From Pseudolabrys sp. (GTDB lineage Bacteria > Pseudomonadota > Alphaproteobacteria > Rhizobiales > Xanthobacteraceae), in the NCBI GenBank assembly GCA_030655215.1, contig JAURVZ010000084.1:186001-250000 (forward strand): a stretch of 64,000 bases of DNA, written 5' to 3'. Position numbers and translations under genes: made by a program. Under the pieces are notes generated by a model. That model was not told the origin of the DNA. It saw nothing but the letters and a program-made list of their open reading frames with translations, and made no database searches. The number at the start of each line of letters is the position of its first letter. The stretch's first letter is position 1. Below are positions 27,344 through 35,450 of the stretch, piece by piece.

Positions 27344-29986
27344 ATGCGCACAGACATTGCCCAGCCGATCCGCCTCAAGGACTATCGCCAGCCGGATTGG
27401 TGGGTCGATACGGTCCATCTCGATGTCGCCCTGCATCCGACGCAGACAAAGGTACGCGCCACTTTGGCGCTGCGGCCGAATGCGGAAAGTGCCGCGGCGC
27501 CTGTGGTGCTCGATGGCGACGGGCTGACATTGGTGTCGCTGAAGGTGAACGGCGCGCTACTCCCCGCCGAGGCCTATATCGCCGCGCGGGACAGCCTGAC
27601 CATTCCGCAGCCGCCGAGCGGGCCTTTCACGCTTGAGATCGAGACTTTGGTCGATCCGACCGCCAATACACAGTTGTCCGGCCTGTATCGCACCAGCGGA
27701 AACTGGTGCACGCAATGCGAGGCCGAAGGCTTCCGCCGCATCACGTATTTCCCGGATCGTCCCGACGTCATGGCGATCTACACGACGCGCATCGAGGCCG
27801 ACAAAAAAGAAGCACCGGTGCTGCTCAGCAACGGCAATCTGACCGAGAGCGGCGACTTAGCCGATGGCCGCCACTTCGCCGTCTGGCACGATCCGCACAA
27901 GAAGCCGGCCTATCTGTTCGCCTTGGTCGGCGGCGACCTGGCGCATGTCGAGGACACGTTCCGCACCCTATCCGGCCGCGACGTGACGCTGCAGATCTAT
28001 GTCGAGCACGGCAAGGAAGACCGCTGCGACTACGCCATGGACGCGCTCAAGCGCTCGATGCGCTGGGACGAGGAAGCCTATGGCCGTGAATACGACCTCG
28101 ACATCTTCATGATCGTCGCCGTGTCCGACTTCAATATGGGCGCGATGGAGAACAAGGGCCTCAACGTCTTCAACGATAAATACGTGCTCGCCTCGGGTGA
28201 CAGCGCCACGGACGGCGACTTCGGTGGCGTCGAAGCGGTCATCGCGCATGAGTATTTCCACAACTGGACCGGCAATCGCATCACCTGCCGCGACTGGTTC
28301 CAGCTTTGCCTGAAGGAAGGCCTCACGGTTTTCCGCGACCAGGAATTCACCAGCGACATGCGCTCGCGTCCGGTCAAGCGCATCAGCGATGTGCGCGGCC
28401 TGCGCGCGGCGCAGTTCATCGAGGACTCCGGCCCGCTGGCGCATCCGGTGCGCCCCGAGCAATACAAGGAGATCAACAACTTCTACACCAGCACCATTTA
28501 CGAAAAGGGCGCTGAAGTGGTGCGCATGGTGCACACGTTGCTGGGCGCGGCAAAATTCCGCCAAGGAATGGATTTGTACTTCGAACGTCACGATGGCGAA
28601 GCCGCCACCGTCGAGCAGTTCATCCAGTGCTTCGCCGATGTCGGCGGCTGGGCCGACAAGACGCAGTTCATGCTGTGGTACAGCCAGGCCGGCACGCCGG
28701 TGGTCACCGCCACCACGCATTACGATGCCGGCGCGAAGACCTACGGCCTGACCGTCAAGCAAACCATTCCGCCGACGCCGAACCAGTCCAACAAAAGGCC
28801 CATGGTGATTCCGTTGGTCACCGGTCTGGTTGGCAAGGATGGCCGCGACCTGCCGCTCACCCTCTCCAGCGGCGGCACGATCGAGCGCGGCGTGCTCGTG
28901 CTCGATGAGAGCGAGAAGACTTTCACCTTCACCGGCATCACCGAGCGTCCGGTGCTGTCGATCAATCGCGGCTTCTCGGCGCCGATCAAGCTCGTCAGCG
29001 ACATTGATGGCGCCGACCTCGCCTTCCTCGCCGCGCATGACAGCGATCCGTTCAACCGCTGGCAGGCCTTGCAGACCACCGCCATGCGGCTGCTGATTGA
29101 CAATGTCTCGCGCCTGCGCGCCGGCGAAACGGCCCGAACCGACGATGCCTTGCTGGCGGCGATGGCCGCCATTCTTGACGACACCAAGCTTGAACCGGCC
29201 TTTGTCGCGCTGGCTTTGACGCCGCCGGGCGAAGGCGACATCTCGCGTGAGATCGGCCGCGACATCGACCCGGACGCCATTTACCGCGCCCGCGCCGCCT
29301 TGCGCGCCGACATCGGCAAGCATCTCGGCGACGCGCTGGCCAAGGTCTATGAACGTATGGCGACCACCGGCCCCTATTCGCCCGATGCGAAGGCTGCCGG
29401 ACGCCGCGCGCTACGCAACACCGCGCTCGATCTTCTGGCGGCCAACGCCGCGCCTGATGCGATTGCCCGCGCCGCCCAGCAATATGACGCGGCCGACAAC
29501 ATGACTGACCGTATGGCGGCGCTGGCCACCTTGTCGCAGCACGATGTGCCGGAACGGGCGACCGCCTTGGCCGATTTCTACACGCGCTATGCCGCCGATG
29601 CGCTGATCATCGACAAATGGTTCTCGCTGCAGGCCATGACACCACAGCCAACGACGCTGGATCATGTCCGCGCCCTCACCGCCCATCCTGCCTTTGGCAT
29701 GACCAACCCGAACCGGGTGCGCTCACTGATCGGCGCCTTTGCGCAGAGCAACCCGACGCAGTTCAACCGCGCCGATGGCGCCGGCTATGACTTCGTCGCC
29801 GACACCATCCTCGCGCTCGATCCGAAGAACCCGCAGCTCGCCGCCCGCATGGCGACCGCCTTCCGCACCTGGCGTACCTTGGAAGCCGGCCGTCAGACCA
29901 AGGCGCAAGCCGCTTTGCAGCGCATCAAGGCCGTGCCGTCGCTGTCACGCGACCTGTCCGACATCATCGAGCGTGCTCTCGGATAA
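27344..29986 (+). CDS. pepN: Aminopeptidase N (M1 family, PepN type)
   Basis: Zinc aminopeptidase of 880 residues, the usual size for bacterial PepN. It removes N-terminal residues from peptides in the cytoplasm. The substrate-recognition motif GAMENKGLN and the zinc motif HEYFHNWTGNRITC with the downstream glutamate in LKEGLTVFRDQEF are intact. The C-terminal DUF3458-type domains characteristic of PepN follow. The gene stands alone and no strong SD is seen. A weak hairpin follows before the kinase gene. Confidence 0.96.
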   Translation: MRTDIAQPIRLKDYRQPDWWVDTVHLDVALHPTQTKVRATLALRPNAESAAAPVVLDGDGLTLVSLKVNGALLPAEAYIAARDSLTIPQPPSGPFTLEIETLVDPTANTQLSGLYRTSGNWCTQCEAEGFRRITYFPDRPDVMAIYTTRIEADKKEAPVLLSNGNLTESGDLADGRHFAVWHDPHKKPAYLFALVGGDLAHVEDTFRTLSGRDVTLQIYVEHGKEDRCDYAMDALKRSMRWDEEAYGREYDLDIFMIVAVSDFNMGAMENKGLNVFNDKYVLASGDSATDGDFGGVEAVIAHEYFHNWTGNRITCRDWFQLCLKEGLTVFRDQEFTSDMRSRPVKRISDVRGLRAAQFIEDSGPLAHPVRPEQYKEINNFYTSTIYEKGAEVVRMVHTLLGAAKFRQGMDLYFERHDGEAATVEQFIQCFADVGGWADKTQFMLWYSQAGTPVVTATTHYDAGAKTYGLTVKQTIPPTPNQSNKRPMVIPLVTGLVGKDGRDLPLTLSSGGTIERGVLVLDESEKTFTFTGITERPVLSINRGFSAPIKLVSDIDGADLAFLAAHDSDPFNRWQALQTTAMRLLIDNVSRLRAGETARTDDALLAAMAAILDDTKLEPAFVALALTPPGEGDISREIGRDIDPDAIYRARAALRADIGKHLGDALAKVYERMATTGPYSPDAKAAGRRALRNTALDLLAANAAPDAIARAAQQYDAADNMTDRMAALATLSQHDVPERATALADFYTRYAADALIIDKWFSLQAMTPQPTTLDHVRALTAHPAFGMTNPNRVRSLIGAFAQSNPTQFNRADGAGYDFVADTILALDPKNPQLAARMATAFRTWRTLEAGRQTKAQAALQRIKAVPSLSRDLSDIIERALG

Positions 29987-30006
29987 AAAGACCTCCCGCT
30001 TACCCC

Positions 30007-30027
30007 TTGAGAGGACTCAAAATTTTT
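30007..30027 (+). terminator. Weak terminator-like hairpin after pepN
   Basis: A 5-bp stem (TTGAG/CTCAA, loop AGGA) is followed by AATTTTT, 20 bases past the pepN stop. The shape fits a Rho-independent terminator but the stem is short and AT-containing, so this is tentative. Confidence 0.35.
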
Positions 30028-30109
30028 AGTGGGTAACGATTTTTTCATAATTGACTCTCTGGACTCTCGACAAATCAGCGCCTGTCGATTCAAATCGACT
30101 TACTGATTC
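30014..30109. promoter_or_regulatory. Cluster of five GANTC (CcrM) sites and a palindrome upstream of the kinase
   Basis: GANTC occurs at 30014, 30053, 30062, 30087 and 30105, five sites in 96 bases where about 0.4 would be expected by chance. In alphaproteobacteria GANTC is methylated by CcrM, and the state of such sites affects GcrA-dependent promoters of cell-cycle genes. A perfect inverted repeat GTCGATT-CA-AATCGAC (30084-30099) includes one of the sites. Regulation of the downstream PleC-like kinase is inferred. Confidence 0.5.
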
Positions 30110-30169
30110 GGACCGGTATTGCAGTGCTTCCGGATCGGGCGGCGGGGAAAATTCCACACGGAGGCCTTC

Positions 30170-32464
<2,295 letters not shown>

Positions 32465-32471
32465 GGCGCCT

Positions 32472-35450
32472 CTAAGGTTCTTTGCCTAAAATCCGTACGA
32501 AACTCTCGCGAACACGCTTCTGCGTTTCCTTGAGCGTGACATTGAGCGTGGCGAAGTCCGGCACGTCAGCGGCGCGCGCCAGCAAGCGCAAGAGGCCGGG
32601 CCCGGCCGTCTTCGGATCGAATGGCCCGGCGAGGCACAGGCGCAATATCTGCGTCAGGTCGTGATAAAGCTGCGCCGCCGGCCTTAAAACTTCGGCATCC
32701 TCAACCGAAACAAGTTTCAACTGCCGCGCTTTGTCGAGCACGCGCGCGGTGGATGTATCGAGAATGTCCGGATGCTGGTGCGCATGCACCAACTGCAAAT
32801 ACTGCGCGATGAATTCGAGATCGACCAGCCCGCCAACCGCGTTCTTGAAATCCCACGGATTGCTGTCGCCCTTCTCATTGGCGATCGCCGTGCGCATCTC
32901 GACAACGTCACCGGCGATCTGCTCGGCATCGCGCGGCTGGCGCAATATGTCCTGAATGACGCCTTCAACACGCGCGGTGAATTCCGGTGACGCCGACACG
33001 ACGCGGGCGCGCGTCAGCGCCATGTGCTCCCAGGTCCAGGCCTCGGTCTCTTGGTAGTTGATGAAACTGCCGATCTGCGTCGCCAGCGGCCCCGCCTGCC
33101 CCGATGGCCGCAGCCGCATGTCGACCTCGTACAGCGCGCCGTAATTGGTCTGCGCGGTCAGCGCATTGATCAGGCGCTGCGTCAGCCGCGCGAAATATTG
33201 CGCGCCGTACAGAGTGCGCTTGCCGTCGGACTCAGGATGCTCACCATCGAAGTCGTAAAAGGTGATGAGATCGAGATCGGAGGTCGCCGTCATTTCGCGG
33301 CCGCCGAGCTTGCCCATGGCCAGCACCGCTGTTTCCTCGGCTTTGACGTGGCCATAGGTATTGGCAAACACCTCAGACACCGCGCGATGCACAGCGCGGA
33401 TCACCGCGTCGGCCAGCCGCGCAAAGGCCTCACCGGCCAGCCGCGCTGTCAGTGTGCCGGACAGGATGCGGACCCCGATCAGAAACATGTATTCCAGCCC
33501 GAACATGCGGATGCGCTCGAGCAGATCCTCGTCATAGCGCGATTGCGCAAGCGCAGCATCGAGCCGGCGCTGCAGCTCCTCATCATCCGGCAACACGCCG
33601 AAGAAACTCGGATCAACCAAAGCATCCATTACCTGCGGATGCCGCGCCAACGTGTCGGCCAGCCGTGGCGCAATGCCGAGCACAAGCGCAATCAGCGCGA
33701 TAAATTCCGGTTTCTGCCGCAGCAGCGACAGCAACTGCGCCGCGCCATGCAGATTGCCGAGGAAGTGGTCGAACAAGATTAGCGTCGCATGCGGATTGTC
33801 GGTGCGGCCGATGTGCTCCAGCAAGGTCGGCAGCAGCGCAGTCAGATGCGCATGCGTCACCTCGCCTTTCAGCGAGCGATGCTCGCCGGCCAGCCACTGC
33901 CGCACAATGGCCGATGTCTCCAGCGGTGCGCGGAAGCCAAGTTCCGTGAGCCGCGCCAACGTCTGTGGATCATCGATGTCGGCGGGAAAATTCAGCGCCG
34001 GCCCATCGCCGTCCGGCACTTTCTCGAACAGCCGCGCATAGTGGCTTTGCACCGCTTCGAGATGACCGACCAGCGCTTCGGCGAAAGCGTCGCGATCGGG
34101 ATAGCCGAGGAAACGCGCAAAGCGCTCCAGGTCGGCGCGCGTCGCCGGCAGCACCTGCGTCTGCTCGTCATTGACCATTTGCAGGCGGTGCTCAACCACG
34201 CGCAGGAAGCGATAGGCCTCCTTCATCGCGTCGCGCGCAGCGGCATCGATCCAGCGGTCCTCGCAAAGTTTGTCGAGCGTGATCAACGTATCGCGGTCGC
34301 GCAGATGCGGATTACGGCCGCCGGCAATCAGCTGCTGCGTCTGCGCAAAGAATTCGACTTCGCGAATGCCGCCGCGGCCAAGCTTGATGTTATGGCCTTC
34401 GACAGCGATCTCACCATGGCCGCGGAAAGCGTTGATCTGCCGCTTCATCGCATGCACGTCGGCAACGGCGGCGAAGTCGAGATATTTGCGCCAGACAAAG
34501 GGCGCCAGCTCGGCGAGGATTGCTTCACCGGCCTTGATGTCGCCGGCGCAGGCGCGGCCCTTGATCATCATCGCCCGTTCCCAGTTCTGACCGACGCTCT
34601 CGTAATAAGACATCGCCGCATGAGTCGAGATGGCAATGCCGGTCGAGGCTGGATCGGGACGCAAACGTAAGTCAGTGCGGAACACATAGCCGTCGCCGGT
34701 GTGCTCCTGCAGCAGTTTCACCACGCGCTGGGTGATGCGCACGAAGGTCTTTGCCGCTTCGGCATTCTCCGGCAGCGCCTCGCTGTCCGGATCGAAGAAG
34801 ACGATGAGGTCGATGTCGCTGGAATAGTTCAGCTCAAAGCCGCCCATCTTGCCCATGGCGAGCACGATGTAGCCGCTGTCGATGTGCGGATTGGCGATGT
34901 CGGGAGGATTGAGTTTACCTACGCGTGCCGCTTCCGAGAGCGCGAAGTTCACGGCGGCAGCAACGGCGGTATCGGCAAGCTCGGTCAGCGCCTGCGTGGC
35001 GCGCATCACCTGCCAGACGCCGCCAATGTCGGCGAGCGCGATCAGCAGCGCGGCCTCCGCTTTCATGCGACGGAGAATGCGCATCGCTTCGTCGATGTCC
35101 TCGCAGGTCGCGGCGGCGCGGCCGCTTGCAGCGAGCAACCCGTCGAGATGCGTCTCCGGCGCGGCCTTCATCATCGCGAGAAAGCGCGCCGGCGCGGTCG
35201 CCACCAGATCCCACAGGAAAGGCGAACTGTCGGCGAGGCTCTCCAGCAATGTCTCGATGAGAGGGTGATCAGCCAGCAGGGTCCGCATCGCGGTGCCATC
35301 GGCATCGCCAAGGCCGCCCAGCCATTCGCTCAGTTTTGCCTTCGCCGCTGCCGGATCGTTGGCAATCGGCGCCGTGACAAGTCGCGACGCCAGCGTCCCC
35401 TGCGGGGATACCTCCGTCAGCTTGGGGTCGTGTCCGGCAGGATCACTCAT
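32472..35450 (-). CDS. glnE: Bifunctional glutamine-synthetase adenylyltransferase/deadenylyltransferase
   Basis: A 992-residue GlnE that adenylylates and deadenylylates glutamine synthetase in response to nitrogen status through PII. Both nucleotidyltransferase domains are present: GKMGGFELNYSSDIDLIVFFD in the N-terminal half (deadenylylation) and GKLGGREMTATSDLDLITFYD in the C-terminal half (adenylylation), each with the metal-binding DxD. The start overlaps the stop of the upstream histidine kinase gene by four bases, so it is translationally coupled to the two-component system. The 3' end is convergent with the PleC-like kinase across a 7-base gap. Confidence 0.97.
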   Translation of the reverse strand: MSDPAGHDPKLTEVSPQGTLASRLVTAPIANDPAAAKAKLSEWLGGLGDADGTAMRTLLADHPLIETLLESLADSSPFLWDLVATAPARFLAMMKAAPETHLDGLLAASGRAAATCEDIDEAMRILRRMKAEAALLIALADIGGVWQVMRATQALTELADTAVAAAVNFALSEAARVGKLNPPDIANPHIDSGYIVLAMGKMGGFELNYSSDIDLIVFFDPDSEALPENAEAAKTFVRITQRVVKLLQEHTGDGYVFRTDLRLRPDPASTGIAISTHAAMSYYESVGQNWERAMMIKGRACAGDIKAGEAILAELAPFVWRKYLDFAAVADVHAMKRQINAFRGHGEIAVEGHNIKLGRGGIREVEFFAQTQQLIAGGRNPHLRDRDTLITLDKLCEDRWIDAAARDAMKEAYRFLRVVEHRLQMVNDEQTQVLPATRADLERFARFLGYPDRDAFAEALVGHLEAVQSHYARLFEKVPDGDGPALNFPADIDDPQTLARLTELGFRAPLETSAIVRQWLAGEHRSLKGEVTHAHLTALLPTLLEHIGRTDNPHATLILFDHFLGNLHGAAQLLSLLRQKPEFIALIALVLGIAPRLADTLARHPQVMDALVDPSFFGVLPDDEELQRRLDAALAQSRYDEDLLERIRMFGLEYMFLIGVRILSGTLTARLAGEAFARLADAVIRAVHRAVSEVFANTYGHVKAEETAVLAMGKLGGREMTATSDLDLITFYDFDGEHPESDGKRTLYGAQYFARLTQRLINALTAQTNYGALYEVDMRLRPSGQAGPLATQIGSFINYQETEAWTWEHMALTRARVVSASPEFTARVEGVIQDILRQPRDAEQIAGDVVEMRTAIANEKGDSNPWDFKNAVGGLVDLEFIAQYLQLVHAHQHPDILDTSTARVLDKARQLKLVSVEDAEVLRPAAQLYHDLTQILRLCLAGPFDPKTAGPGLLRLLARAADVPDFATLNVTLKETQKRVRESFVRILGKEP

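Follow-up and report, generated by a model that had tools for sequence, protein, structure and literature searches.

Conserved GANTC sites in the predicted promoter of a PleC-like kinase gene point to GcrA- and CcrM-dependent expression across the Hyphomicrobiales

In the 64-kb stretch of Pseudolabrys DNA that we analyzed (the window), the intergenic region between pepN and the ATG of a sensor histidine kinase gene at 30170 (29987-30169) contains five GANTC sites, starting at 30014, 30053, 30062, 30087 and 30105. Does this cluster mark a promoter that is read by GcrA on DNA methylated by CcrM, and which of its sites carry the signal? The features that bear on this question are collected in Table 1.

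The cluster is unusual for its surroundings. GANTC occurs 81 times in the window versus 282 +/- 15 occurrences expected from dinucleotide shuffles, a 3.5-fold depletion of the kind expected for genomes with CcrM, and because the word is so strongly avoided, the cluster is the more notable. When 81 sites were scattered randomly over 64 kb, at least five fell within 96 bp in 2 of 5000 trials. Shuffling the 96 bp themselves reached five sites in 3 of 5000 cases (0.06%), and dinucleotide shuffling of the AT-richer intergenic region 29987-30169 did so in 29 of 5000 (0.6%). Outside 30014-30109, even three GANTC sites in 96 bp are found nowhere else in the window. The original prediction of a dense cluster before the kinase is thus borne out, with five sites at the densest spot of the window. 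Genome-wide, the ranking is less exclusive: in the genome's own assembly (3.64 Mb, 80% complete), GANTC triples with gaps of at most 30 occur at about 25 places, and the cluster is among the densest but not at the top, as C92:8027-8164 holds six sites. That denser intergenic region (G000:C92:8027-8313, equivalent to L206:3028-3310) has nine GANTC in 283 bp together with the DnaA-box-like words TTATCCACC and TTGTGGA, and lies upstream of an open reading frame resembling a YbjN-domain protein.

Table 1. Positions in the window of the predicted promoter elements, the GANTC sites and the neighboring genes.
Feature	Position	Strand	Remarks
pepN	27344-29986	+	flanks the kinase gene upstream
Outermost GACTC	30014-30018	+	14/29 of the genus alignment
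Degenerate CtrA-like box, GTAA-N6-TTTC	30033-30046	+	weak here; GTAA-N6-TTAA in many relatives
GACTC at about -47	30053-30057	+	25/29 of the genus alignment
GACTC abutting the -35	30062-30066	+	34/34 genus, 2/17 family representatives
Predicted -35, TCGACA	30067-30072	+	34/34 genus, nearly all family representatives; TGGACA, TAGACA or TCGACA in relatives
Palindrome (7-2-7), GTCGATTCAAATCGAC	30084-30099		from the original prediction; judged chance
GANTC at the upstream edge of the -10	30087-30091	+	14-15 bp after the -35; 34/34 genus, 15/17 families
Predicted -10, TCAAAT	30090-30095	+	17-bp spacer; from the alignment of relatives
Start-region GANTC, TGATTCGG	30104-30111	+	GATTCG; 34/34 genus, 13/17 families; matches TGATTCG/YGAKTCK
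PleC-like sensor histidine kinase, 764 aa	30170-32464	+	ATG preceded by GGAGG
glnE	32472-35450	-	flanks the kinase gene downstream, convergent

Both regulators that the prediction depends on are encoded in the same genome. The single CcrM homolog aligns over its full length with the CcrM of PDB 6pbd (E 4e-156); it scores 605 bits against the NCBIfam CcrM model, under the 830-bit cut-off, which none of the searched genomes reached, the Caulobacter vibrioides control included. A single GcrA is present as well (PDB 7ye1, E 4e-39). Both proteins also occur in 22 of 22 relatives checked, so no natural loss of either was available among them as a test of promoter dependence.

The kinase can be called PleC-like from its predicted domain layout. 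Two transmembrane segments (about residues 35-64 and 203-227) enclose an extracytoplasmic region, presumed to have a Cache fold, and are followed by two tandem PAS domains, HisKA and HATPase_c, as in Caulobacter PleC, whose architecture is Cache, PAS-A, PAS-B and kinase (PMC8980812). NCBIfam holds no PleC model, and its DivJ model matches only the kinase part, below the cut-off. Each same-genus genome has one clear ortholog, and the neighborhood is partly shared, as pepN lies upstream in 42 of the 72 loci with room for it, and 26 of 45 loci have glnE downstream in convergent orientation. A further GATTC at 30209-30213, within codons 14-15 of the kinase, is kept in all 29 genus members (28 GATTC, 1 GACTC); it encodes Asp-Ser (GAT TCC), so protein constraint can explain its conservation.

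The conservation of the promoter separates the five sites from one another. We collected the sequences upstream of orthologs, picked by protein similarity alone, from 34 members of the genus and 17 other families of the order, and aligned them on T[G/C/A]GACA. The alignment predicts a transcription start at about 30102, which would put the core GANTC sites within about -40 to +40 of it. The sites at 30062, 30087 and 30105 are each present in 29/29 sequences of the genus alignment, where the average four-of-five word of the intergenic region is retained in 37%. At the level of families, 16 of 17 retain one or both of the core sites, at the -10 and in the start region, at the expected offset; one of the two is missing in four to five families, and the exceptional representative (L067) has GANTC at a different spacing. 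The start-region site lies 28-33 bp downstream of T[G/C/A]GACA wherever it is counted in Table 1, and all 47 sequences that keep it read YGAKTCK, 40 of them TGATTCG, a word with a single copy in the whole window (30104-30110). The site abutting the -35 recurs in Bradyrhizobium, Xanthobacter, Pseudovibrio and some Roseibium loci. The core sites are under strong selection. The signal ascribed to all five sites therefore runs deep in 30062, 30087 and 30105, whereas 30053 is a genus-level feature and 30014, found in about half of the genus, is probably not essential. The perfect palindrome around one of the sites, which the original prediction had also put forward, exists but is irrelevant: perfect 7-2-7 palindromes number 10 in the window, and among 51 orthologous promoters just 3 carry one at the same place, so we dropped it as an operator and attribute it to chance. 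TTGACT at 30051 was considered as an alternative -35 and rejected, as it has no well-placed conserved -10 and lies in a region unshared outside the genus.

The arrangement is also specific to this gene. A strict pattern (GACA-N13-16-GATTCNAAT-N4-10-GATTCGG) scanned against some 85,000 genomes of bacteria and archaea found at least 80 loci, and among the 80 matches listed, 73 lie directly upstream of a PleC-like kinase, one is cut by the end of its locus and six fall in Bacteroidota, Planctomycetes and Gammaproteobacteria, which is about the number that we estimate chance would give. The kinase-linked matches listed include Bradyrhizobium, Nitrobacter, Methylocystis, Xanthobacter, Azorhizobium, Ancylobacter, Pseudovibrio, Roseibium, Kaistia, Mesorhizobium, Afifella and others. 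The pattern occurs once in the Pseudolabrys genome and is absent from the other 114 genomes of a 115-genome sample of the class. A general class of -35/GANTC promoters (TNGACA-N10-19-GANTC) gave 92 matches in the same genome, mostly coding-like and with no obvious enrichment of N14-15 by eye, and was dropped as uninformative. Two pleC orthologs from outside the order (L226 and L227) have a looser promoter, with TGGACA, GAATC and then GATTCG or GAATC, which suggests that the architecture is older than the order; this version is missing in four other outside-order genomes examined.

Could the sites be bystanders in a sigma70 promoter that is indifferent to methylation, its conserved -35, -10 and initially transcribed sequence containing GANTC by accident? 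We regard this as improbable. The -10 site does overlap the -10 hexamer, the start was placed by alignment, and core-promoter constraint alone would conserve part of what we see. Within that site, however, N varies (T, A or C) and so does the following base, while G, A, T and C are constant; four fixed recognition bases around a free position point to the methylation site as the target of selection. GATTCG in the start region, which is not part of the hexamers, is conserved to the same degree, a third GANTC recurs in the spacer at one offset (4-5) in 7 of 17 families, and all of this stands in a genome that otherwise avoids the word.

A conserved site of some regulator other than GcrA and CcrM, such as CtrA, LexA or an unknown protein, is about as improbable in our judgment, and the points in its favor concern CtrA. 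Upstream of the -35, one-mismatch TTAA-N6-TTAA occurs in 37 and TTAA-N7-TTAA in 46 of 116 sequences versus about 6 in shuffles; as the 116 sequences are related, these figures are not to be read as a probability. Of the other gap lengths, 4 shows mild enrichment (19 versus 5 in the same sequences), and 5, 8 and 9 show none upstream of the -35. In Sinorhizobium meliloti, CtrA was bound at the pleC promoter region by ChIP-seq, and its depletion left pleC expression unchanged (PMC4433202); Brucella abortus CtrA is cited in PMC2877005 as binding pleC. Against this reading, the CtrA box does not coincide with the GANTC sites and is degenerate in the Pseudolabrys genome at hand, and what is conserved corresponds exactly to the CcrM site and the GcrA motif. 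We prefer to see CtrA as an additional input rather than an alternative. Several loci of Roseibium/Labrenzia and similar bacteria (L104, L119, L131, L146, L147, L156 and L161) carry a pair of GTTAAC-type boxes (GTTAACAA.. and GTTAACCATTTT) ahead of the pleC -35, a CtrA-like arrangement stronger than that in the window. LexA overlap was discarded, as inspection of the sequence gave no GTTC-N7-GTTC.

That the sites of one genome cluster by chance in an intergenic region richer in AT, for which the 0.6% of shuffles and the other clusters in the genome might speak, is scarcely credible, since every genus member keeps three of the sites and two persist across families, a comparison that refutes chance for 30062, 30087 and 30105 and would leave it as an explanation only for 30014.

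We therefore return to control by GcrA and CcrM. The presence of both proteins, the conservation of site positions across the order and the match of the start site to the GcrA motif support GcrA/CcrM-dependent expression of the kinase, so that this part of the original prediction gains good comparative support. We think it very likely that a pleC ortholog is transcribed from this region by a sigma70 promoter that GcrA activates when CcrM has methylated the DNA, probably with CtrA input. Methylation, GcrA binding, the start site, timing and CtrA input are all things that we infer from sequence, and they would combine as follows. CcrM would methylate the adenines of the GANTC sites, which lie next to the -35, over the -10 and immediately downstream of the predicted start of a housekeeping-sigma promoter (-35 at 30067-30072, 17-bp spacer, -10 at 30090-30095). 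GcrA would bind RNA polymerase at sigma region 2, recognize the methylated sites (TGATTCG at 30104-30110 above all) and help to open the promoter. Transcription of pleC would thereby track the methylation state of the locus, which would shift at fork passage and again when CcrM acts late in the cycle, and in many relatives the upstream CtrA box may add feedback.

The Caulobacter crescentus pleC promoter is the closest known system. Depletion of GcrA lowers PpleC-lacZ activity by about 60%, changing GAnTC to GCnTC reduces it by 60-80%, and GcrA depends on CcrM to bind there (Fioravanti et al. 2013, PMC3667746). An unprecedented additional layer, as the original prediction had it, is therefore not what we find, Caulobacter pleC being a proven GcrA/CcrM promoter already. 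The two promoters share the gene class, promoter GANTC, GcrA and CcrM in the genome and YGAKTCK near the start. They differ in that control in Caulobacter was established by reporter assays and ChIP, whereas the promoter in the window is known from its sequence; the fixed positions at the -35 edge, -10 and start are described for Hyphomicrobiales orthologs, and no genome sampled outside that order has the strict pattern. The GcrA proteins of Brucella and Sinorhizobium bind methylated GANTC, behave alike in vitro and complement a gcrA mutant (PMC3667746), and TGATTCG/YGAKTCK is, as cited in PMC7987155, the motif proposed for GcrA-activated C. crescentus promoters (Haakonsen 2015). Two reports count against our main reading: in Brevundimonas, GcrA-activated promoters yielded no extended motif (PMC7987155), and a promoter GANTC is not diagnostic of CcrM control in Ensifer (PMC8725594). 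S. meliloti pleC (SMc02369), a presumed ortholog likened here by description, is essential and CtrA-bound (PMC4254191, PMC4433202), which assigns it a function and fits the upstream box; GcrA/CcrM control of it is not described in these two papers.

The system is thus of a known kind, and within the literature searched its conserved multi-site GANTC arrangement across the Hyphomicrobiales seems to be new. The survey of Brilli 2010, which tallied GANTC promoter by promoter and could not infer control, did not report the pleC promoter (PMC2877005). Adhikari 2021 described little conservation of GcrA targets outside the Caulobacterales, with pleC unnamed in the main text (PMC7987155). Our use of extended-GANTC conservation as evidence of GcrA control resembles that study of regulon rewiring in the Caulobacterales. 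In contrast to the rewiring, one target, pleC, keeps its promoter here. What appears new is an order-wide, gene-specific set of GANTC sites outside the Caulobacterales: GcrA/CcrM targets are reportedly rewired even among close relatives, yet pleC keeps the positions in nearly all Hyphomicrobiales families with an ortholog found. The arrangement would tie methylation to a kinase upstream of CtrA in rhizobia, Bradyrhizobium and their relatives, and the model of sites at the -35 edge, -10 and start offers a ready means to test at which point relative to RNA polymerase methylation is read by GcrA. More tentatively, and with the odds in our view against it, the Hyphomicrobiales pleC promoter might be an ancestral sensor of methylation specific to this gene. 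Two methylated GANTC sites, at the -10 and the start, would then flank the melted region, and their joint state (full, hemi or null methylation) would be read by GcrA-RNA polymerase as a replication timer for the DivK-CtrA network, unlike the rewired rest of the GcrA regulon.

Replication-timed expression of pleC, also part of the original prediction, is only plausible. In one complete chromosome of the same genus (5.59 Mb), the sign of the GC skew switches near 3.8 and 1.0 Mb, and pleC lies at 2.06 Mb, about 60% along the origin-to-terminus arm. Judging from that one relative, the locus would be fully methylated in early replication and then hemimethylated until CcrM acts. About 225 bp upstream of gcrA in the Pseudolabrys genome, three GANTC sites lie within 35 bp (G000:C6:59625-59659), which suggests possible feedback on gcrA.
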